DNA of 64,000 nt from Paramacrobiotus metropolitanus. Lineage: Eukaryota; Tardigrada; Eutardigrada; Parachela; Macrobiotidae. Location of the stretch: positions 620,001-684,000 of the forward strand of contig NW_026570229.1 in the NCBI RefSeq assembly GCF_019649055.1. The letters run 5' to 3'. Position numbers and translations under genes: made by a program. Positions 34,740-54,612 of this stretch are shown here, in pieces. The notes under the pieces were generated by a model. That model saw only the letters and a list, made by a program, of their open reading frames with translations, did no database searches and was not told the DNA's origin. Position 1 is the first letter of the stretch, and every line of letters starts with the position of its first letter.

Positions 34740-35571
34740 TCAAATGGGAAAATCTATTTCAGTATCACTACCTACATTAATTGCCACTGCCGATAAAAAA
34801 GCATACCGCGGCGGTATCGTTGCCTTGAAATTCGATAGCAGTTGGATATCCTTTTCCAATAAGTTAACGGACAACCATCCTGCGTCGTCCTTGGTGTCGT
34901 AAAACTCTATTGCCAGCCCTTGTTCTTGGTCAGCATAACAGCCCACCGCAGACGTATATTCTGTCTTTGATGACGCAAGTGGCATGCTGCGATCTCGGTT
35001 GCGGAAGTGGCTGTATGTTTTCCCATATAGGAGCGGTAGCATGCATGTTCAGACGGATGCAATCAGCTGTTTTCGAAAGGTGTCGTACGGAGTCATCCAG
35101 TGTTTTGAGAAAAATTCCGCCTAAAATGTAAACGTATCCGTTCACGGCAGCCATCGCAAAGTCCCATCGAATCTCTGGCAAATCCAACAGGGATTTCCAT
35201 TCTTTGTGTACAGTGTCATATCGACACAAGTGGCGCGTTGTAGCATAAAATATGTACTGACCACATTTAGTCAGTGACACTCGTTGTGGAAACCTGCAAC
35301 CGAAAAGCTTTAATGGGATCGCAAACATATAATTGCCGCTTTTGAGCAGAAAAAGCACCTGTACAACGTACCGGCATCTTTTGGGGGGAGTTTTCAGATA
35401 CATTGAACTCCCAGTTGAAGCATCGATCTCCGCAAAGTGTCCACTCTGGTCCAAAAGATAAATGTTTTTGTCATGCATTGTAATGCTGCGATAGGGGTGA
35501 TCCATGTCTCTCAACGCAGGCATCGTTACTCTAAATTTCTTTTCCACGACATTCCATGAAAGGAACACATA

Positions 35572-35573
35572 GG

Positions 35574-35604
<31 letters not shown>

Positions 35605-38600
35605 CAATGAGCAGACAAACCCTCGAGGCACTAACAAGTCTGGTCAGTAGCATATGAAATATGAAAACATCAGAATTAAGATCATTACAACAGATTCGCC
35701 AGTTTCAGTGAAGACAGGTATTCCTTAACAGAGCCACAACCAAAATACTCAACACCATTATTTTTTCCACCACCAGTAACTTTATCAAACAAAGTTTTCA
35801 GCCTCATTGCTAGGGTCGTCTTTCCAATCCGTGACCTCGCAGTGGTGTCGATGCGTGCCTCCCGGCGGAGGGCATACCTCGCGTTGGTCTCTTTAAACGG
35901 AATCAGCTCACACATGTACGACGGTACTGTGAAATTTTCCCGGTTTCGTATCTTATACAGCCACACAGCTTCGTTCTGGCGCCATCGATCGACTGCTGCG
36001 GTTATACCCAGCCGTTGGTACAGTTCCGGTGTTACCCGTTCCCTGTTATCGGTGATGGTCCGTAAGGCTGCGTGTTGCCGTTTCATCAGCTGCTCCTGCT
36101 CTCCCAAGGACGCTGCCGACCATGCCATAGCACAGTAATCTATGTATGGCTGGACGAAGGCGTGGTGAAGGGTAACTCGCTGGGAATCGCTGAGACCGGA
36201 TTTAACACGTTTAATCTTTTGGATGCCATAGTTGATGTTGCGCTTTACTTTCTGGAACTGCTTGTCCCACTTTAGGTGTTGATCCACTTCAACGCCAAGG
36301 TATGTCGCATGCTGCTTAATGGTTAACTTTTGGCCGTTAAGGATGATCGGTGGATTGGCCTCGGCTTTATTTTTCTTTTCGGTGCATATGAACATTCCCG
36401 CACATTTCTTCACGTTCAGTGCTAATCCGTTGTCATCAAACCATTTAGCCGCCTCCGCCAACGCCTTGTTCAACTTTTCGGCGGCCGCTGCTTTGGTTTT
36501 CCCGCGACAGTGGATTATAGTGTCATCCGCAAAGGCTTCGATCTCGCACTGAATAATCTGCAACAAATCGTTCAAGAATATTATGAACAGTATAGGGCCA
36601 AGCACGGTGCCTTGGGGAACGCCGGAAATGACTGGTAACCAGCTGGATGTCTTTCCGTTGATCTTTACACGTTGCTGACGATCGGTCAGGTACGAATGGA
36701 ACCATGCCAGAACTACATCGCCAATACCACTGCGTTTCAGCTTCGATAACAGTTGTTCGTGGTTCACGGAATCAAACGCTTTTTTCAGATCAAGCATAGC
36801 GACTGCTGTGACATCACCTTCATCCATCGCCCGTTTCCAAGTTTCAGTGACTTTAACCAGTAGTGTTTCACAAGAGTGTCCTTTGCGAAAACCAGACTGC
36901 CGCTGTGACAACAGGTCATGCTCCTTCAGAAAGGCGGTTAGTTGAATCTGAACACAACGCTCGAAGATTTTAGAGATGTTGCACAATAGCGATATCGGTC
37001 GGTAATCATCGACACTTTTCGCATTGTTTACTTTCGCCAAGGGACATACATCAGCCATTTTAAAGACTGAGGGGAAAACGCCTTCCCTCAGAGACTTGTT
37101 AACCATGCGGGTTAACGGGGGTACCAGCATAGAAGCGACGGCTCCTAATACTCCTGAAGGTATCCCAAATGGCCCGCATGCTTTCTTTTTCGCTCTAATG
37201 TCTTGCACAATTGACATCACCACTGCTTCCGAGACTTCTGAAAATCTACAAAACAAACTGTTAGCGGTATCCGCCCCGACGGGGGCTGCTGGTGCGACAT
37301 GCGGGAATCCATGTTGGCCCATAGATACAAAATGCTGGTTCAAGGAGTCCAGATTAACTGCACATTCTGCTTGATGTTTTGTTTTGCGTAACATTCTGCC
37401 CAGTTCTTTCCACAGACGCGAGGTCTTTTTTTGATTTTCATAAAAATAGCGCTCTTTGGCAAAACCAATGTGCTTGCGTACCGCTGTCCGAATACTGCAG
37501 TATTCCTGATGGAGTGCAGGATACTGATCTGTTCCTCTCGCTTTACATTTCCGCTTGTACAAATCATTCTTTTTTCTGATGTTTCTGCGTATTTCTTCAG
37601 TTATCCAAGGGGCTTCTTTCTGCTTCACACGCTTCGTACGAGTTGGAAAACAGTGATCAACAATGTCAGAAATGCCCTTCACGAAGCTGCTCACCTGGGC
37701 GTTAACGTTAGCGTTTGCGTCTTGGAACTCATCTTTCATCGTGAAACATTTTACTTGCGCTGCAAAGTCTTCTTCTTTCGTATGCTTCCACAAACGGTAG
37801 GAAACTGTTTTGTGACGTGGCACAGCTGATTTGTATTTTGCTGTAGTACGACACATGCGGTGATCGGAAATATCGATGTCTTCTGCTGCACTGCTGGTGT
37901 AACTAACAGGGGGGTGGCATAACATAACATCAATTTTCGAGTTGGTCACATAAGGGGAATTATCGGACTTTTTTCGGCGATTTGAAACGCGTGTACCACC
38001 AATAACCATATCTTCGAGATCGAATTCATTGCAGATATCAACGTAATGACGATAAAATGGGGAGCTGGCATTGTTGGCGTTAATGTTTAAATCCCCTGTT
38101 ATAACATAGTCACAACTAGGGTACCTACAGAGAACATCACGGATATGGTCGAATAAAGCCTCCGTACTGCGAGCGTTGGTGTCAGGAGCTCTGTATACGG
38201 TACCCAGGAGAACTTCTTTATTTCCGAATCGAAGCAATAACCACAGGCTTTCCACATCCACATTATCAGAGGAAACATCAACAACAGAATAAGTAACGTG
38301 GGAAGGAAGGTAAACAAGGATGCCACCACCACTGCGCTTACGGTACTGAGTAGAACGGTCCTTGCGGATAAACGTATAGTTCGGGATTTCATACAACTGC
38401 GAAGGATCATTTACACAAAGATGGGATTCCGTTACACAAAAAATCTTCACTAAATTGTCATCACAAGACAAAATTTGCTGCACTGCATCGACTTTTTCGC
38501 TGTTCATACGCTGTATATTAAGATGATGGTACACAACGGTCCCGAGTGGTGATGATTTTCTGGCCCGCATTTTTGAATTACTTACTGTATCAACACAAGC

Positions 38601-38730
38601 ATGAACTCAAAAGATGTAGAAAAGAATAAAGAATAGTTCAGTACGAAAACAATCTACAATTTATGCAACAGAATTGAAGAAAGTAGAGAAAACTTTGTTG
38701 GCTAGACGGAGCTAAATTTAGCCCGCCAGC
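35572..38730 (-). mobile_element. CR1/Jockey-like LINE inserted in the kinase-kelch pseudogene, ORF2 intact
   Basis: The 3' end (minus strand) is TTGAATAAAC followed by about five copies of the pentamer TAAAC (35572-35602). The 5' end lies near 38730, about 160 bp before the ORF2 start, so ORF1 is missing (5' truncation or a single-ORF element). The insertion splits a kelch-region coding stretch whose two halves align with the uninterrupted paralogue at 52,700-52,800. No clear target-site duplication is visible. Confidence 0.88.
35685..38570 (-). CDS. LINE ORF2 protein: APE endonuclease + reverse transcriptase, intact
   Basis: This uninterrupted 961-residue frame starts at ATG (38570). Residues about 10-240 form the APE-type endonuclease, with catalytic blocks CVTESHL, VITGDLNINA and the C-terminal ISDHRMC. 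The reverse transcriptase spans about residues 470-750: DYRPISLLCNISKIFERC, QSGFRKGHSCETLL, MLDLKKAFDSVNH, SGVPQGTVLGPILFIIFLNDL-type block and catalytic FADDTIIHC. A thumb/C-terminal domain follows (YIDYCAMAWSAAS, RVTPELYQRLGI). All catalytic residues I can check are present, so the protein may be active, although the element lacks ORF1. Related 3' fragments lie at 51013-51594 and 53803-54612. Confidence 0.93.
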   Translation of the reverse strand: MRARKSSPLGTVVYHHLNIQRMNSEKVDAVQQILSCDDNLVKIFCVTESHLCVNDPSQLYEIPNYTFIRKDRSTQYRKRSGGGILVYLPSHVTYSVVDVSSDNVDVESLWLLLRFGNKEVLLGTVYRAPDTNARSTEALFDHIRDVLCRYPSCDYVITGDLNINANNASSPFYRHYVDICNEFDLEDMVIGGTRVSNRRKKSDNSPYVTNSKIDVMLCHPPVSYTSSAAEDIDISDHRMCRTTAKYKSAVPRHKTVSYRLWKHTKEEDFAAQVKCFTMKDEFQDANANVNAQVSSFVKGISDIVDHCFPTRTKRVKQKEAPWITEEIRRNIRKKNDLYKRKCKARGTDQYPALHQEYCSIRTAVRKHIGFAKERYFYENQKKTSRLWKELGRMLRKTKHQAECAVNLDSLNQHFVSMGQHGFPHVAPAAPVGADTANSLFCRFSEVSEAVVMSIVQDIRAKKKACGPFGIPSGVLGAVASMLVPPLTRMVNKSLREGVFPSVFKMADVCPLAKVNNAKSVDDYRPISLLCNISKIFERCVQIQLTAFLKEHDLLSQRQSGFRKGHSCETLLVKVTETWKRAMDEGDVTAVAMLDLKKAFDSVNHEQLLSKLKRSGIGDVVLAWFHSYLTDRQQRVKINGKTSSWLPVISGVPQGTVLGPILFIIFLNDLLQIIQCEIEAFADDTIIHCRGKTKAAAAEKLNKALAEAAKWFDDNGLALNVKKCAGMFICTEKKNKAEANPPIILNGQKLTIKQHATYLGVEVDQHLKWDKQFQKVKRNINYGIQKIKRVKSGLSDSQRVTLHHAFVQPYIDYCAMAWSAASLGEQEQLMKRQHAALRTITDNRERVTPELYQRLGITAAVDRWRQNEAVWLYKIRNRENFTVPSYMCELIPFKETNARYALRREARIDTTARSRIGKTTLAMRLKTLFDKVTGGGKNNGVEYFGCGSVKEYLSSLKLANLL

Positions 38731-39749
38731 CAACCAATCTCAACTGAAGAACTCGTACCATCTCTTTCTTGTTGTAATACCACCGTTTCTCTTTTTTCCC
38801 CTCCTAAAACGTCACATAACCGAGCCAATGCTGACGGTGGGCTGAACAAGTGTTGAATATCAAACGCTCCAGAATCGGGTTCGAATATTAGCACATCCTT
38901 CAAGGTCCAGTCGTCAAAGCAGAACGGGAATAGCACTATAACATGCTTCTTTTGTTTCCTAAAAGCTCGTGCGCCGACGTTCTGCTTATACTAACCGGAT
39001 GCAGACATTGTCGGATGAGCCGCGCCAACTTTTCTTCAATGCCATCGCTCACCAATGGCACAAAACCGTCGATGATCAGATTGATATACTGTGAATTCGA
39101 AACACGGTTTCCAGCTTCCACAATTTTGGTGCCATTAACGAGTCTCTTTTCGATTACCCTGTGAAGTTTTTCAGCCATTTCCAGAATGATGCAGCCCAGA
39201 CTCCAAATGTCTGTTTTCCTGCCTGGTGACTCTATCGCTGTTTGGGCAAATTTCCTCAGCATTTCTGGTGACATGTATCGTGTTGTGCCGCGGATCTGCA
39301 ATATATCTGCGGAACAGGTTGCGCTTCCACGGATTTGAACTAAATCGTCTAAATCGCCGATCAGAAGCGTTTCCCGGTCGTCATCGACGGTTTTTACAAG
39401 GATATTCTCCGGCTTTAAATCGCCATGAATTATGCCATTCCGATGCAGGAACTCCAATCCACGAGCGATGTGGAGCGTGAACCTAATAACCTTTCTGCGA
39501 GTATAACGATTCAGCAAGCCTTCATTTCGCGTATTTTCCTTCAGAAGAGAGGCGAGATCACCTAAGGAAAAGCGCGAACGCCTTACTAAACAATTGGATG
39601 GAAAACAACTTTGCCATCTTAAAACCAACGAACTTTGAAAGCGTCAAAACCCACGGGGGGTAATGGCGAATCTAGGCGGGTTTGGACGGGGGGGGGGCTA
39701 AAAACCCACACAAAAGGGAGGAAGGGTATTCTTTCGCTTTTTCGGCGAC

Positions 39750-39808
39750 CTCGGGCGTAAAAAAATTCGCAACGTACCCCCCTCTTGAGAATTTTTTTGA
39801 CGCCCGAG
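39750..39808. repeat. Long perfect hairpin in a foldback insertion
   Basis: CTCGGGCGTAAAAAAATTC (39750-39768) is matched by its reverse complement, with one extra base, at 39789-39808, around a 20-base loop. An outer, less perfect pair surrounds it: GGTAATGGCGAATC near 39660 with AAATTCGCCACTGG near 39845. Runs of G and C (up to ten) flank the hairpin. It looks like a foldback MITE inside the intron of the kinase-kelch pseudogene. Confidence 0.6.
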
Positions 39809-40797
39809 TTACAGGGGGGTCATTAGCCCCGGGAGCCCCCCCTTAAATTCGCCACTGGTGAGTGCGGCTGTATCAGCGATGTACGTTATGTATCACCGGT
39901 ACGCACTGATTTTAAAAATAATCTGAATGTGATGTATGTCAATGCACACAGCCGCATCGGTCCCATTCTCTGTAAGGCTGTATGTGGTTGCCACATCCTA
40001 TATTTTCATCTCTGCGCTAAAAATATCCGATCGGACTGTACTAACTCGCAACCGTATCATTTCCATACCAATGTTAATAGCTATGCACTCCCCGCGGCTC
40101 GCAGTAGCATTAGCAGGGCCAGCCAGGTCATCACAAACGCTCGCGAGTTATTTGGTGGTGTTACCCCTTATTCCGTTATTTATTTAGGTACCCGCAGGTG
40201 GAACACTTGCTGCATAAAACGAATCCGCAGTCTATTTTTTGTGTACGGGTTCGTAAGTCCTGACGGTTACAGCTCAGGCAGTCAGAAGGTGCATACATTC
40301 TACCCAATGAGCTAGTGCCTACAGTTACAATTGTTTAAAATTCGTTCGACTTTAGAACGAAAGGATAGAGATGTCGAAATATGTAACAGTATATTAAAAT
40401 AACCTTTGAGATGATCCATTGCCAGCTCCACGGTTGCTCCTCCGGGAGCTGTGAAGATGGAAATTTTGGGGTAAACCACCAGATGTTTATGAGTCAGTTC
40501 CGTGAGTCTTGTCAATCTTGTCAAGGCATCCATCCAGCTTTGCTCCCCATCAGCAGCTGCGGTTTGTATCACTTTGACAGCGATAGCGTTCTCTCCCGTG
40601 TAAGTGCCGGGCTGCGTAACTTTGGCTCTATAAACCGTACCAAAGGTTCCTCTGCCAATGAAGTCCATGTGCGAATAGCGGTACTGCATATTGCAGCCAA
40701 TGACTGCCACTGCGGCGCCATCGTTAAGCGTTTCGGTAGCGTAGCCGCTGATCGTTTTGTTAGCTGCGGTGTCTGTGTTGGGAGCAGTATTAGCCAC

Positions 40798-44789: not shown

Positions 44790-46480
44790 ATTGGTATCTA
44801 TAAACGACTATAAGACTACAGGCGCCTACGTATACTACAAAGACTTTAGACACTACTGGGAGCCACAAAGAAAACAAAACTACAAGCGACTACGCAGGCT
44901 ACATGAGCTAGGGTTATTACAGAAAACTGCACAGGCTTCGAGACTACTGGTAGTGGTGACTACCAAAAACTACATAACCTACCAAGACTACCGAGACTAC
45001 AGAAAACTATGCAAATTACCGAGACTGCAGGAAACTACAGAAAACTACGCAAACTACCGAGACTACAGGAAACTACACAAACTATCGAGACCACCGAAAA
45101 CTGCATAAACTACCCAGACTACAGGGACTACGGTAAACTACACGAACTACCGACACTAGTGAAAACTACAGAAACTACCGGGACTACTGAAGACTACACA
45201 ACCTAGCGAGACTACCGAAGACTACACAAACTACCGAGACTACCGGGACTACGGTAAACTACACGAACTACCGAAACTACTGAAAACTACAGAAACTACC
45301 GGGACTACCGAAGACTACACAACCTACCGAGACTACCGAAGACTACGCAAACTATCAAGACTACCGAGACTACAGAAAACTACGCAAACTATCAAGACTA
45401 CCGAGACTACAGAAAACTACGCAAACTACCGAGACTACAGGAAACTATAGAAAACTACGCAAACTACCGAAACTACAGGAAACTACACAAACTACCGAGA
45501 CTACAGGAAACTATAGAAAACTACGCAAACTACCGAAACTACAGGAAACTACACAAACTACCAAGACTACAGGAAACTACAGAAAACTACGCAAACTATC
45601 AAGACTACCGAGACTACAGAAAACTACGCAAACTACCGAGACTACAGGAAACTATAGAAAACTACGCAAACTACCGAAACTACAGGAAACTACACAAACT
45701 ACCAAGACTACAGGAAACTACAGAAAACTACGCAAACTATCAAGACTACCGAGACTACAGAAAACTACGCAAACTACCGAGACTACAGGAAACTATAGAA
45801 AACTACGCAAACTACCGAAACTACAGGAAACTACACAAACTACCAAGACTACAGGAAACTACAGAAAACTACGCAAACTATCAAGACTACCGAGACTACA
45901 GAAAACTACGCAAACTACCGAGACTACAGGAAACTATAGAAAACTACGCAAACTACCGAAACTACAGGAAACTACACAAACTACCAAGACTACAGGAAAC
46001 TACAGAAAACTACGCAAACTATCAAGACTACCGAGACTACAGAAAACTACGCAAACTACCGAGACTACAGGAAACTATAGAAAACTACGCAAACTACCGA
46101 AGCTACAGGAAACTACACAAACTACCGAGACTACAGGAAACTATAGAAAACTACGCAAACTACCGAAACTACAGGAAACTACACAAACTACCAAGACTAC
46201 AGGAAACTACAGAAAACTACGCAAACTATCAAGACTACCGAGACTACAGAAAACTACGCAAACTACCGAGACTACAGGAAACTATAGAAAACTACGCAAA
46301 CTACCGAAACTACAGGAAACTACACAAACTACCGAGACTACAGGAAACTACAGAAAACTACGCAAACTACCGAAACTACAGGAAACTACATAAACTATCG
46401 AGACTACCGAAAACTGCACAAACTACCGGGACTACGGTAAACTACACAAACTACCGAGACTACAAGTTACTACAGGCCAC
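44790..46480. repeat. ACTAC minisatellite with higher-order 141/207-bp units
   Basis: The basic unit is a variable 8-11-base motif ending in ACTAC (GAAACTAC, GCAAACTAC, CGAGACTAC). From 45388 it is organised in long units: the marker ACTATCAAGA recurs at 45388, 45595, 45736, 45877, 46018 and 46225, giving periods of 207, 141, 141, 141 and 207 bp. The longer unit is the 141-bp unit with an extra 66 bp that is itself a partial copy. Units are almost identical, with one A/G difference near 46100. The flanking parts (44790-45350 and 46320-46480) are more degenerate. Short frames through it are by-products of the repeat and are not called as genes. Confidence 0.92.
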
Positions 46481-46814
46481 CGCACAAAATAATGAAAATG
46501 CTGGTAACTACGGGCATGGCGGAAAAATTTTGCCATTGTATAAACATCCTTCGCGAATACATAGGCTACAACGGAAAGGTGCACTACATCGTCTAAGAAT
46601 GGCCTTAAAAAAATGTCGTGTTCGAAGTGTGCCATAGGTGGCTGCTTCGGTCTTCTATGTCGATAAAACAAGTCGATAAAACAAGTGAGTAAAAGTAGCC
46701 TCTGCAAATGGGAAAAATACAGCACATACAAGCCATCGCGCTGTTTATTTTGTTTAAACTGTGCAAAAATTTCCGCTCTGGCCTTTCCGACTTGGCAGTA
46801 TATATAGTAACTTT

Positions 46815-49314: not shown

Positions 49315-52300
49315 ATGGCTTGGCTAGGAAAAATAATAAAACGGGTTAGTAATAATGGCGTAAAGTTAATAACCGGTAGGCAATTTTCTAACGAATTTTT
49401 TTCATCTAACCAAGATAGGGAGCAATGCGAGCACTGCTACCACAACGGACACTACACGAGACGGACTTATACACTACAGGGAGCCAACGGCTACCACAAC
49501 GGACACTACACGGAGCGGTGGCGCAGCCGAACCAGTTAACGATGAAGGCGCAGCGGAGATCATTGGCTGGAGTATGCAGTACCGCTATTCACACGCCGAC
49601 TACATTGGCAAAGGAACCTTTGGTACTGTTTACAAAGCCAAAGTTACGCAGCCCGGCAGTTACACGGGAGAGGATGTTGTCGCTGTCAAAGTGATACAAA
49701 CGGCTGCGGCTGATGGGCAACAAAGCTGGAAAGACGCCTTGGCAAGATTGAGAAGGCTCACTCAACTTTCTAACAAATATTTGGTGGCTTATCACAAGAT
49801 TTCTATCTTCACAGCTCCCGGAGGAGCTACCGTGGAGCTGGCAATGGACTACCTCAAAGGTACCGTGGCACTACTACACAGTACTGCGTAATTTCGTCAT
49901 GACTTCAGTACTCGTATCGTATGAAAGGGAAGTTTGCGGACACATTCATGACGTAAAGTGTGCAAACTAAAAACTTTTCGTTTTCGTGCAACCCGAAACT
50001 CTTTTTCCGTTAACTTATGTCACCACCATGTAACCCAATAATTACCCACTGGCGTGAAAACCGTCAGTGTACGAAACATCTGGTTAGGAAGTTGTTGATG
50101 CAAAGCCTTCCTTATGTTTATTCAACAGACGTTTACCAAAAACAGTCTCATTACGAACCGATTCTGTCAAAAGCGCACACGTACTTATGAAGAGCTTTTA
50201 CACCGAACTAAGGTTCTAGCTTTTTCACATTTTTTAATGGAGTTCAAAAATTTTAACAATCATTTCAAAATTTGAAAAACCGGTGGAATGACTGGAATCC
50301 TGATTGGGCTTAAGGAAAATGACCCGGTGCATAGCGTCAAAAATGGGAAACATGCACTAAGACTCTCGCGTTCGCGCACTCCGAATCGCTTTTTGTATAC
50401 TTTATACTAAATCTGAATAATTTGTATTTATTGTTTTGAAAACCGTTTGCGCGCGCAGCACCCGGTTTCCGGGCTATGCCGTACTAAACTGAAAGAAAAG
50501 TTTAAATGCATTGGTTGTGTACCGAAAGTCTGGTCATTGCCCGATCTTCTTGAAATTTTCCAGTAAAAGACACACAGCCATGAAGTCGGAAGTGAACCAA
50601 CTTCAGATCCATAGCATTTTTTTCCGATTTTAAAATGAATTTCAAAAATTTTAGAATTCATTCTAAAATTATGGGAAAGTGCTATGGACCTGAAATTGGT
50701 TCACTTTCGACTTTCTGGCCATGTGCCTTTTGCAGCAAAGTTTCAAGAAGATCCGTACACAACAATGCATTTACAACTTTTCGCCCATTTTAATACACCA
50801 TATTTCGGCAACCGGATGTTGCGCGCCCAAACGGTTTTCAGAACAATGTATACAAATAATTTAGCTTTCGAAAGACATAAAGTATGGCAAAATATTGATT
50901 CGGAGTGCGCGCAAGCGAAAGTTTTAGTGTACAGATATGTATCCCATGTTTGATGCTATGTACCGTTCCATTTCCTTTAAAAACGACCTTCATAAATATA
51001 TGCCGTTTCTATTCATGTATCAGGAGCAGACAACCCGGTAAACGGGACTGCAATGTCTGGTCGGTAAAGAAAACAAACAGCTAACTATTACCAAGGAGAT
51101 TATTAAAACAGATCAACAGTTTTCAGAGCGAACTTAAAAAAGCCGACACCGATAACATTGAGTATCTCTGCACTAACTTTTTGAATCCGTTCAAAAACGT
51201 TCTTCAATCGCATAGCAAGCGTGCCTTCTCCGATTTTCTGTTTCGCTCTGGCTTGGATTCGTTTCGGCTTCCGGAGATTGTACTGGGATGACAGGTCCTT
51301 GAAGTCGATCATTTCAACCAGGTACGGCGGAGGTTCGTACACTTCATGGTTGTAGATCTTGTACAACCAGACGGCTTCCGACTGTTTCCAACGGTTAAGT
51401 AGCGGCAGGATGCGCAATTTCTGATACAGCTCGGGGGTTACCCGCTCCTTGTAATCAGTAATGGCCTGCAGTGCTTTCCTTTGGGCTCTGGTCAGCTTGT
51501 CGCGCAGAGTCGAAGATGCTGGTGACCACGTATCCGACCCATAGTCGAAATGTGGCTGCACGCAGGCATGGTAAAGACTCCTACGTTGTGACATGTCCAG
51601 GCCTTCCTTCGCTGCGTTTTAAAAGGTGGAGTGGATCGGTTCCCAGTAGAGTATGAGTTTCGGTATAACTCGATGCCGTCATACATTTTGGAAGCTTATG
51701 TCCCCAAAAACAACCAAACGGTTCTTTTAACATTGAAGACACAAATCGCTTGACTGCAGAACGTTAAAACACAATTAAAAAATTAATAGTGTTGTTTGTG
51801 CGCCTGTGCGTGAAAACAAAAAGTTGGCGTGTATGTGCTCGTATTTGGTACAACCTAAAAGCATACTTCCCGCTCTTTACCCTCTATTTGTTTATATGTT
51901 AATGAGGCTGTACACCTTTCTGTATGTAGGTGATCTTGCGTCCTTTCTGAAGGAAACTATGCGAAATGAAGATTTACTGAACCGTTATACTCGCAGAAGT
52001 ATCATTAAGTTCACAATCCACATTGCTCGTGGACTGGAGTTCCTACATCGGAATAGCATAATTCATGGCGATTTAAAGCCTGAAAACATCCTCGTGAAAG
52101 TGGTGGGAAACGACCGGGAAAGGCTTCTGATCGGCGATTTAGACGACCTAGTTGAAATGCGCGGAAACGCAACTTGTTCCGCAGATATATCGCAGATTCG
52201 CGGCACAACACGGTACATGTCACCAGAAATGCTGAGGAAATTTACGCAAACAGCGAACGAGCCACCAGGAAGGAAAACAGATATTTGGAGTCTGGGCTGC

Positions 52301-53611
52301 ATCATGCTGGAAATGACTGAACGCCTTCACAGAATCGAAACAAAGCGACTCGTCAAGGACAAGGAGATTGTAGAATCTGGAAGCAACATTTCGAACCAGC
52401 TATATGCCAGTTTAATCATCGATGGTTTCGTGCCACTGGTGGGAGATGAAATTGAGAAAAATTTGGCGCGTCTTATCCGACAATGTCTATTTCCAGTTAG
52501 TAAAGACAGAATTCGGGCGGACCAACTACTGCAGACTTTTAGGCAACAAGACAACAAGCAAGTAATAGTGCTGTTCCCGTATTCCAGAGACGGTTTCACC
52601 CTGAAAAATGTTGTTTTATTTGATGTTTTATCCGGCTCGTTTAATATTCAAGATGTGCCTAAACTGCCATCAGCATCGGTGGATTTCTGTGCCGTTTTAA
52701 AATGGAAAAAAACAGAAATGGTGTTGGTACAACGAGAAAGGATCGATAAGCACCGTACGGTTGCAAATTATGGGTTTCTTTTCTGGAATGTTGTGCAAAG
52801 GACATGGCGCAACACAATGACTACTTTGAGATATAAGAAACTCCCTCCAAGCTGTATTATAACGAACGCCAAAAAAATTTATTATTTGGATGAGAGAGGG
52901 AACTTCGAAGAAATCGACGGTTCTAATGGCAGCAGACAACCTTTGGAAAGCGCTTTCAATCATATGAGGTAACCTGCACCGATGATTTTTCTTATTACAA
53001 TGTTTGGCAGCTGTCAGTCAACGACTCCAGCAAAGATTTTCGGTTGCAGTTTTCCAGATCAAGTTGCAGTGACTAAATGTGGCCAGTACATATTTTACGC
53101 TACAAAGATCGGCTTGTGTCAATATGACATTGTGAACAAAGAATGGCGAATGCTGCCGGATTTTCCCAAGCCACGAGGGGGCTTTGCAATGGCTGTGGTA
53201 AACGAATACGTTTACGTTTTAGGCGGGTTTTTCGCTTTGACAGATGGCAACCCTGGCCGTCAAGATTTTAATGAAACAGCTGACTGCATTCGTCTAAGCG
53301 TGCATGGACATTCTAGTGCTCGTGCATGGAAGAAGATAAAGCCGCTTTCGCAACCGAGGTTTTATCATGCCGCTTGCGTCGTCAACGATAGGATATACGT
53401 GTGCGGTGGCAGATACGCCAATCTAGAGCACGCGTTCGTAATAGAGTCTTATGACACCAAAAACAACGCAGGATGGTTCTCCGGTAACTTGTTAGAAAAT
53501 GATATACAGCTGTTGTCGAATTTTGTTGCAGAGATAAAGGAATGGTATAATCACATATCGGCAGTGACAGTTAGTGTGGATAATGAAACTGTAATCGAGT
53601 TTGCCGGTTGA
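49315..53611 (+). CDS. Protein kinase-kelch fusion protein
   Basis: Model: 49315-49344, 49415-49859, 51930-52968 and 53011-53611, giving 704 residues; the first small exon (MAWLGKIIKR) is tentative. The second exon has a Thr-rich leader with an internal duplication and the kinase N-lobe (IGKGTFGTVYKAKV with the Gly loop; VVAVKVI with the ATP-binding Lys). The third exon gives the C-lobe: IIHGDLKPENILV (HGD instead of HRD), LIGDLDDLVEM where DLD replaces DFG, TTRYMSPEML and DIWSLGCIMLEM. After a linker the C-terminal third carries kelch-type repeats (KCGQYIFYAT, EYVYVLGGFF, PRFYHAACV, RIYVCGGRY). Kinase-plus-kelch in one chain is an unusual architecture; the propeller-like part probably recruits partners. 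The substrate is unknown and the DLD variant may lower activity. The 2,070-nt intron holds an inverted repeat and a LINE fragment. The paralogue at 34740-40797 is dead. Confidence 0.82.
50432..50960. repeat. Large inverted repeat of family R2, in the kinase-kelch intron
   Basis: The left arm (50432-50640) is the reverse of family R2 and the right arm (50641-50960) is the forward copy, meeting head to head near 50640. Both arms carry the GTTCACTTTCGACTT, TTTCAAGAAGATC and ACCGGATGTTGCGCGC blocks in opposite orientation, with moderate divergence. It could fold into a hairpin of about 200 bp in the unspliced transcript. Confidence 0.7.
51013..51594 (-). mobile_element. 3' fragment of a CR1/Jockey-like LINE
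   Basis: The frame at 51594-51103 encodes the C-terminal part of a LINE ORF2 (SLYHACVQPHFDYGSDTWSP, RVTPELYQKL, AVWLYKIYN), similar to the end of the intact element at 35685-38570. The 3' UTR ends near 51013 at GTCTGCTCCTGATA (minus strand). It is 5'-truncated and inserted in the intron of the kinase-kelch gene. Confidence 0.85.
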
Positions 53612-53802: not shown

Positions 53803-54612
53803 TCAGGAGCAGACAACCCGCTAAACGGGGCTTCAACGTCTGGTCGGCGCAAAAACCAAACAAAAAAAAATTACTAAGACAGATCAACAATTCGGAGAGC
53901 AAATGTGAAAAATCCAACATCATCAACACTGAGTATACGCAAGTTAACTTTTTGTATGCGCTCAGAGATGTTCTTTAGTCGCGTGGCCAGCGTGCCTTCT
54001 CCGATCTTCTTCTTCACTCTGGCAGCAATTCTCGTTGGGTTCTGCAGGTTGTACCGCATTCCAAAATCCGTGAAGTCGATCATCTCGACCATGTTCCTCA
54101 GCGGATGGTATGCTTTGTGGTTGTAGATCTTGTACAACCAAACCGCTTCCGACGGCTTCCAACGGTCGTACACCGGCAGGATGCGCAGTTTCTGATACAG
54201 CTCGGGTGTAACCCGCTCCTTGTAATCATAAACCGCCCGCAGTGCTTTCCGCTGTGCCCTTTCTATCTTGCCGCGTAATGCCGAAGATGCCGGCGACCAC
54301 GTACAGTACCTGACCGGAGTCAAGATGTGGCTGTACACAGGCATGGTAAAGGCTCCTACGCTGAGGCAGATCCAGGCCGTCTTTCGCGCGGTTGATCATT
54401 GCTATGCCGTAGTTGACTTTCCGCAGTACGTGATCGTAGTGCACGCTCCACTTCAGGTTGCGGTCAATATAAACACCAAGATAATTGACTGACTGTTCCG
54501 CGTCCATCTGGTATCCGTTGATCATTACAACAGGACAGTGTGGCTGTTCGTTCCTTCCGAGCAGATGTACATTAGCTTGCACTTCTTCTCGTTGATATCT
54601 GTCAAACACCTG
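53803..54612 (-). mobile_element. 3' fragment of a CR1/Jockey-like LINE (same family as 51013-51594)
   Basis: Frames at 54609-54226 and 54344-53874 together encode the RT thumb and C-terminus (NYLGVYIDRNLKWSVHYD, RRSLYHACVQPHLD, RVTPELYQKLRILP), with a frameshift near 54310. The 3' end TTGTCTGCTCCTGATG is followed on the minus strand by an ATT/TAA simple repeat (53775-53802), a likely 3' tail. It lies just beyond the stop of the kinase-kelch gene. Confidence 0.83.

Follow-up and report, generated by a model that had tools for sequence, protein, structure and literature searches.

What kind of gene places a protein kinase with altered catalytic motifs in front of kelch repeats, and does it stand alone in its genome? 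The question is raised by positions 49315–53611 of a 64,000-nucleotide (nt) stretch of Paramacrobiotus metropolitanus DNA (contig NW_026570229.1, positions 620,001–684,000; C9:620001-684000 in our contig numbering), which we call the window. A preliminary description had proposed that one spliced frame joins a complete kinase fold to C-terminal kelch repeats, and that the gene belongs to a lineage-specific signalling family with reduced or unusual catalysis. At the level of sequence, the architecture, the number of copies and the set of motifs are firm. The best reading, which we judge somewhat more probable than not, is a large kinase–kelch fusion family in which the propeller would pick the target and an unusual kinase would give the output. 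The parts of the window gene are as follows.

49373–49859, + strand: open frame holding the kinase N-lobe exon (Gly loop, VAVK); donor GT at 49860, 5' end uncertain
49419–49859, + strand: N-lobe exon as joined here, with GT..AG borders and in frame with the next two exons
49688–49690, + strand: VAIK-type Lys (VAVK); Lys in 63 of 65 aligned loci
49745–49747, + strand: Arg where the alphaC Glu is expected; 59 of 62 aligned loci have Arg or Lys, 0 have Glu
49860–51929, + strand: phase-1 intron of 2,070 nt with repeat debris
51930–52968, + strand: exon carrying the C-lobe of the kinase and, probably, degenerate first blades of the propeller
52064–52087, + strand: HGDLKPEN catalytic loop, counted family-wide
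52136–52147, + strand: DLDD replacing DFG, counted family-wide
52969–53010, + strand: phase-2 intron of 42 nt
53011–53611, + strand: kelch exon including the stop codon 53609–53611

Exons 49419–49859, 51930–52968 and 53011–53611 read on in a single frame. Their borders, 49859/51930 and 52968/53011, follow the GT..AG rule, and as joined here the exons encode 713 residues rather than the 704 given earlier. A Pfam search of the spliced model matches both domains: Pkinase with an E-value of 5e-35 over residues 78–369, spanning the whole catalytic domain, and Kelch_1 with an E-value of 7e-13 in two stretches. No Pfam match to BTB/BACK is found in the protein. The tail of exon 51930–52968 has no match of its own below E 0.05 in a PDB profile search; against the kelch profile it is degenerate and blade-like, with an hhalign probability of 90. 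Because this tail aligns to the kelch profile, the exon by itself probably links the kinase to the propeller, whose blades would comprise the two Kelch_1 stretches and the degenerate ones of this exon. The E-values, together with many paralogues of identical exon order, rule out a chance origin of the kinase and kelch calls. Judged from the DNA, the kinase–kelch gene of the window is real, and the single spliced frame that had been proposed holds up.

The proposed 5' end fares less well. A start at 49315 would require a 43-nt intron at 49376–49418, and the nearest paralogue (locus L001 with its upstream piece L108) aligns uninterrupted across it (74% over 110 nt, window 49345–49448), which leaves the start exon unsupported. 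The in-frame ATG of this paralogue is ATA at the matching window position. Within the kinase exon, the first ATG seen in frame lies at 49574; because it precedes the Gly loop, the kinase domain is complete with either start.

The gene does not stand alone. The genome (169,799,020 bases, 533 contigs) was searched with the window exons, and among the best candidates, which were scored, there are at least 117 C-lobe, 144 kelch and 150 N-lobe places. In a first pairing, 71 of the 117 C-lobe places have a same-strand kelch match within 3 kb downstream; the controls give 6 for kelch upstream and 2 for the opposite strand. With one divergent query and a few Pfam kelch matches added to the window queries, at least 127 distinct C-lobe loci of this kinase type are found on 63 contigs, several on some contigs and 10 on C41. 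A same-strand kelch exon lies within 3.5 kb downstream at 82 of the 127 (80 distinct kelch places; controls: 7 upstream, 2 on the other strand), all of these counts being lower bounds. The earlier suggestion of a family is strongly supported for this genome. In one paralogue, L017, the C-lobe and kelch matches lie within a single 532-codon open frame, and its gene model has Pfam E-values of 1.3e-32 for Pkinase and 3e-14 for Kelch_1. Pfam finds Kelch_1 in all 55 homologous exons scanned and Pkinase in all 43 C-lobes scanned. Kelch repeats away from this kinase are also numerous, for example at C7:1.58-1.67 Mb and on C72, C50 and C155; when the Kelch_1 profile was run against the genome, the best 150 of 990 candidates were scored and all are matches.

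Gene models were built with our own spliced protein-to-DNA aligner at 70 loci. The 71 kinase–kelch pairs merge into 70 regions, from which the window's own and C7:749363-754307 were excluded, and the remaining 68 are tabulated with the window gene (W1) and a broken neighbour (W2). The phase-1 intron at the border of N-lobe and C-lobe is present in 59 of the 70 models, and an intron near the 52969–53010 point in 66, most frequently in phase 2. The core is stop-free in 48 models, counting W2, whose model is spurious. Stops occur in 18, several of them at the uncertain third junction and others inside the kinase or kelch part (e.g. L010, L049, L050, L058); loci of the latter kind may be pseudogenes or assembly errors. 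Outside this genome, the C-lobe profile retrieves only generic kinases among the best 80 loci of a prokaryote collection and among 7 loci of a viral collection, with best-segment identities of no more than 38%. Near relatives in bacteria or viruses are rejected on the matches listed. On searches covering this genome and the two collections, the family may be lineage-specific, as proposed.

How unusual is the kinase? For every motif position, the counts take in those of the 70 loci that align there. The VAIK Lys is present in 63 of 65. HGD replaces HRD, with Gly in 65 of 67 and Asp in 66 of 67, and the Asn of the catalytic loop is found in 67/67. DLD replaces DFG, with the first, Mg-binding Asp in 67 of 68, Leu in 61 and the second Asp in 65. 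At the alphaC-Glu position, which an alignment of the N-lobe to ULK1 assigns to the family Arg, there is Arg in 50 of 62, Lys in 9 and Glu in none. The HGD, the DLD and the missing alphaC Glu noted in the window gene are therefore common to the family, and since they are family-wide, the changes are not the decay of one copy; a degenerate single copy is excluded. Three hallmarks of the superfamily, the alphaC Glu, the HRD Arg and the DFG Gly, are absent from nearly all copies, and membership of the protein kinase superfamily stands because these positions vary among known kinases. The residues whose loss defines a pseudokinase, the catalytic Lys, the catalytic Asp and the Mg-binding Asp, are kept by nearly all copies. 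MNK kinases (DFD) and WNK kinases (DLG) are active despite an altered DFG; the C-lobe family profile has MNK1 and MNK2 among its PDB matches, and both MNK and WNK kinases differ from this family in the remaining motifs. The altered active site retains the residues for ATP, magnesium and phosphotransfer. Of the catalysis previously called reduced or unusual, "unusual" is supported, the altered motifs being constant in the family. "Reduced" is possible but unsupported: nearly all copies keep the Lys, the HGD Asp, the Asn and the DLD Asp, and selection on the kinase part is mostly purifying.

Other kinases from this genome form a series with respect to these changes. L098, ASK1-like by eye, has HRD, DFG and alphaC Glu. 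In L094/L104 (C5), L081/L105 (C16) and L087/L107 (C205), HRD accompanies DLG or DIG, with Lys, Arg or Thr in alphaC; L096/L102 (C12) and L089/L106 (C72) have HTD, DLDD or DVDD, and Asn or Lys in alphaC; L090/L101 (C82) has HGD, DLDD and an alphaC Lys. The nesting in a C-lobe tree matches this series, with support of 0.991 for the HGD group plus L090, 0.943 when the HTD pair is added and 0.875 with the HRD group. The outgroups come from 20 hand-picked loci and their N-lobes from 7; for L103 there was no match that could be used, and the N-lobes of L101 and L107 align weakly. As a separate observation, the kinase expansion is broader, with members on C16, C69, C104, C205, C72, C12 and C5 that have HRD/DLG, HTD/DLDD or DFG motifs, several of them clustered.

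No kelch match is found nearby at 45 of the 127 C-lobe loci, and C-termini were examined at 11 of these 45 and at one N-lobe-only place (L076). L070 (C85:93300-96300) joins the kinase to HSP70 in one 680-residue frame (Pkinase 2.8e-24, HSP70 2.5e-89). At C150:133352-135099 the kinase and HSP70 matches both give a 450-residue frame, in register, and this is likely a second kinase–HSP70 fusion. L072 and L073 run on into a second kinase-like stretch (L073 has two Pkinase stretches), and L075 terminates in another N-lobe. L077 and L080 show, by eye, a hydrophobic helix near the C-terminus and are perhaps tail-anchored. L069 has a long tail with no Pfam match, and L079 retains blade-like sequence. 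The tail of L071 (C55) gives a weak P-loop signal (best E 0.035) and no Pfam match; as a query it finds 43 places in the genome, pieces counted, and a by-eye guess that it is torsin-like found no Pfam or PDB support.

The C-lobe tree holds 94 sequences, W2 and short or stop-containing C-lobe segments of kelch loci being excluded. Most loci with exchanged C-termini fall among kelch-bearing members, L077 lying outside. L080 nests in an 11-leaf node of otherwise kelch-bearing loci (support 0.979), and L069, L070, L071, L074 and L075 form an 8-leaf node (0.93) with three kelch-bearing loci, within a 70-leaf node (0.931). We lean toward kelch being ancestral and later exchanged, and this stays a leaning because the node uniting every kelch-fused member has a support of only 0.369.

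Do the two domains evolve alike? In many close pairs the ratio of nonsynonymous to synonymous substitution rates (dN/dS, omega) is ~0.2–0.35 in the kinase part versus 0.5–1.3 in the propeller half; L006/L012 and L013/L016 show little difference between the two. Site models were fitted with our own GY94 code to 11 tandem paralogues, gapped columns being removed, which leaves 276 of 310 columns for the kinase, 98 of 128 for the linker and 141 of 172 for the kelch exon. For the kelch exon, M1a–M2a gives twice the log-likelihood difference (2dL) as 33.8 (p 4.5e-8) and M8a–M8 a p of 1.1e-8, with omega 4.8 at 8% of sites; M1a–M2a gives p 6.6e-4 for the linker and p 0.34 for the kinase. In 55 replicates simulated under M1a the highest 2dL is 6.5 versus the observed 33.8. 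The kelch signal persists in the nine sequences left when L011 and L017 are removed (M1a–M2a p 3.5e-5, M8a–M8 p 4.4e-6), and with these nine in three sub-pieces, each with its own tree, M8a–M8 gives p 0.0053, 0.0031 and 0.097. The kelch exon therefore shows signs of diversifying selection in one tandem clade, a frequent pattern among recognition proteins, and the kinase much less.

Kelch-exon sites with posterior above 0.8 in the set of 11 are model columns 545, 567, 569, 630, 631, 650, 653 and 674 (0-based), and 569, 631, 650 and 674 still have a high posterior in the set of nine. Columns 569, 630 and 631 come right after the Arg that is conserved in two consecutive repeats, and column 567 before it; the pocket residues of KEAP1 would sit after the repeat Arg in the same way. 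In KEAP1, Ser508, Ser555, Ser602, Asn414 and Arg415 are ligand contacts in the Nrf2 pocket, according to the sections of the source consulted (PMC6891428).

Which known proteins does the family resemble? In BTB-BACK-kelch proteins the CUL3 adaptor part is N-terminal to kelch. KEAP1 and KLHL12 share the kelch propeller, and the family profile matches PDB chains of both, whereas the window protein, with no BTB/BACK match, has a kinase at the place of the adaptor part. Of the PDB chains, ASK1 (MAP3K5) fits the C-lobe family profile best, and weak matches to the N-lobe profile include ULK1, TAO2 and CDKs; unlike ASK1 and other Ser/Thr kinases, the family has HRD, DFG and alphaC Glu all altered. 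Going by this best profile match, the family may belong to an ASK1-like MAP3K group; the tree covers kinases of the same genome, L098 among them being ASK1-like by eye.

A kinase and kelch in one chain is already reported in other eukaryotes. The Src-like kinases of Entamoeba (EhSrc, EiSrc) have KELCH domains and a kinase in one protein, as does the window gene, according to the portions of the reports used (PMC5648430, PMC2939887); there the kinase is described as the Src homologue of Entamoeba, with no large family mentioned in those portions, and the likeness is one of described domains (PMC5648430). Tb927.5.3150 of T. brucei is a membrane kinase with two Kelch or Kelch-like domains and, in the extract used, predicted transmembrane domains and a signal peptide, whereas none is obvious by eye in the window protein (PMC8519429). 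For tardigrades, the open-licence literature yielded no paper describing a kinase–kelch family; six papers that name both tardigrades and kelch appear to deal with other subjects. A comparison of Hypsibius and Ramazzottius lists, among the clusters found only in tardigrades and congruent in architecture, 27 of kinases, kelch being unmentioned in the part consulted (PMC5531438), and a term search of the available text of the P. metropolitanus transcriptome paper finds neither kinase nor kelch (PMC11191345).

Under the reading of a kinase–kelch fusion family, the propeller would bind a particular partner and the kinase would phosphorylate that partner or itself, and each paralogue would thereby bring its kinase to targets picked by a surface of its own. 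The HGD, which lacks the Arg for the activation-loop phosphate, and the Arg or Lys in alphaC suggest a non-standard switching of kinase activity: it would depend not on the usual Lys–Glu bridge and loop phosphorylation but on another contact, perhaps with the propeller. Diversification of the propeller is indicated for at least one clade. Several observations weigh against parts of this account. The propeller evolves more slowly than the kinase in L003/L024, L004/L024 and L003/L004. The kinase of the tandem clade also gives a signal, a smaller one (M7–M8 p 0.002, M8a–M8 p 0.007), which in the set of nine stands at p 0.13 in M1a–M2a and 0.0053 in M8a–M8. In the window gene's own clade of 7 members, diversifying selection was tested by site models and not found (M1a–M2a p 0.94, M8a–M8 p 0.31), with omega 0.38 for kelch and 0.36 for the kinase; the kinase of this clade gives an M8a–M8 p of 0.027. 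A third clade is weak (p 0.19 in M1a–M2a, 0.014 in M8a–M8). Because dS is unequal between the domains of L013/L016 and L007/L023, gene conversion between some copies is suggested, and this is able to inflate site tests. Finally, the absent alphaC Glu could mean weak or no catalysis.

Other explanations of the locus account for some of the same data. That the kinase and kelch parts are two adjacent genes, or an artefact of gene prediction, would be compatible with evidence drawn from genomic DNA and with the uncertain 5' end of the window gene. However, exon 51930–52968 probably continues from the C-lobe into blade-like sequence, the identical kinase-then-kelch order recurs at 82 loci and L017 carries both domains in one open frame, and we reject this explanation as very improbable. 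It is unlikely that the window copy is decaying, its start codon altered and its intron full of repeat debris. The ATA in place of the nearest paralogue's ATG and a neighbouring paralogue broken by extra DNA would agree with decay, but ~2 kb of coding frame is open, the splice borders are intact, comparison with L001 gives omega values of 0.33 in the kinase and 0.53 in the propeller half, and the ATG at 49574 preserves the entire kinase domain. A pseudokinase scaffold, in which the kinase fold would no longer phosphorylate and would instead provide the propeller with a module for binding or dimerisation, is a possibility we hold to be rather doubtful. Nearly all copies lack the alphaC Glu, HRD Arg and DFG Gly, and the Glu is also replaced in six relatives outside the kelch-paired set (L101, L102, L104-L107); yet the Lys, Asp, Asn and Mg-binding Asp are kept at the frequencies given above and kinase omega is ~0.3. 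Since drift would be expected to erase some of these residues in a family this large, their conservation speaks against a dead enzyme.

The proteins could instead be recognition receptors, variable intracellular sensors for pathogens, mobile elements or mates, with the C-terminal domain as bait and the kinase as alarm. The copy number, the presence of several loci on single contigs (10 on C41), the diversifying propeller sites of one clade, and the relatives in which HSP70, a second kinase or a hydrophobic helix replaces kelch all speak for this, but clear diversifying selection appears in one of three clades tested, not the window gene's, and reproductive proteins can leave an identical signature. 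We regard this explanation as possible yet not probable; as read from the sequences, its main grounds would be a single clade and the swapping of domains at the C-terminus. Plant kinase fusion proteins (Sr43, Lr9, Pm4 and tandem kinases) likewise join a kinase to varied second domains and are proposed to combine a decoy with a signalling kinase, in the passages of the source used (PMC10260397). By analogy only, the family might be an animal counterpart, with a non-canonical kinase, exchangeable sensors (kelch, HSP70, a second kinase, a membrane anchor) and a selected kelch binding face, acting in defence, self/non-self or mate recognition, a proposal we offer tentatively and think improbable as a whole. 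If the kinase–kelch reading is correct, a very large intracellular kinase family without the alphaC Glu and HRD Arg is coupled to a recognition domain that evolves under diversifying selection in one clade. Two questions would then become open to test: the way in which a kinase functions when its alphaC carries Arg or Lys, and the possible existence in tardigrades of a large and variable set of sensors beyond the known immune receptor families.

The broken neighbour W2, found by genome searches with the window exons, lies inverted in the same window.

34740–40749, − strand: disrupted inverted paralogue (W2)
40749–40402, − strand: part of its N-lobe exon
39564–38764, − strand: its C-lobe exon
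38763–35572, − strand: extra DNA of ~3.2 kb inside the C-lobe exon
35571–34740, − strand: its kelch part

Its kinase exons are 77–83% identical to those of the window gene, and by its sequence W2 is a broken copy. A portion of the extra DNA resembles, by eye, a non-LTR (long terminal repeat) reverse transcriptase. The 2,070-nt intron of the window gene contains inverted repeats at 50355–50929. Reverse-transcriptase-like fragments are seen by eye on the minus strand at 51103–51618 in the intron and at 53874–54395 after the stop, 77% alike over 300 nt. Elsewhere in the window, 45258–46637 on the + strand is a long open frame built from a tandem peptide repeat.

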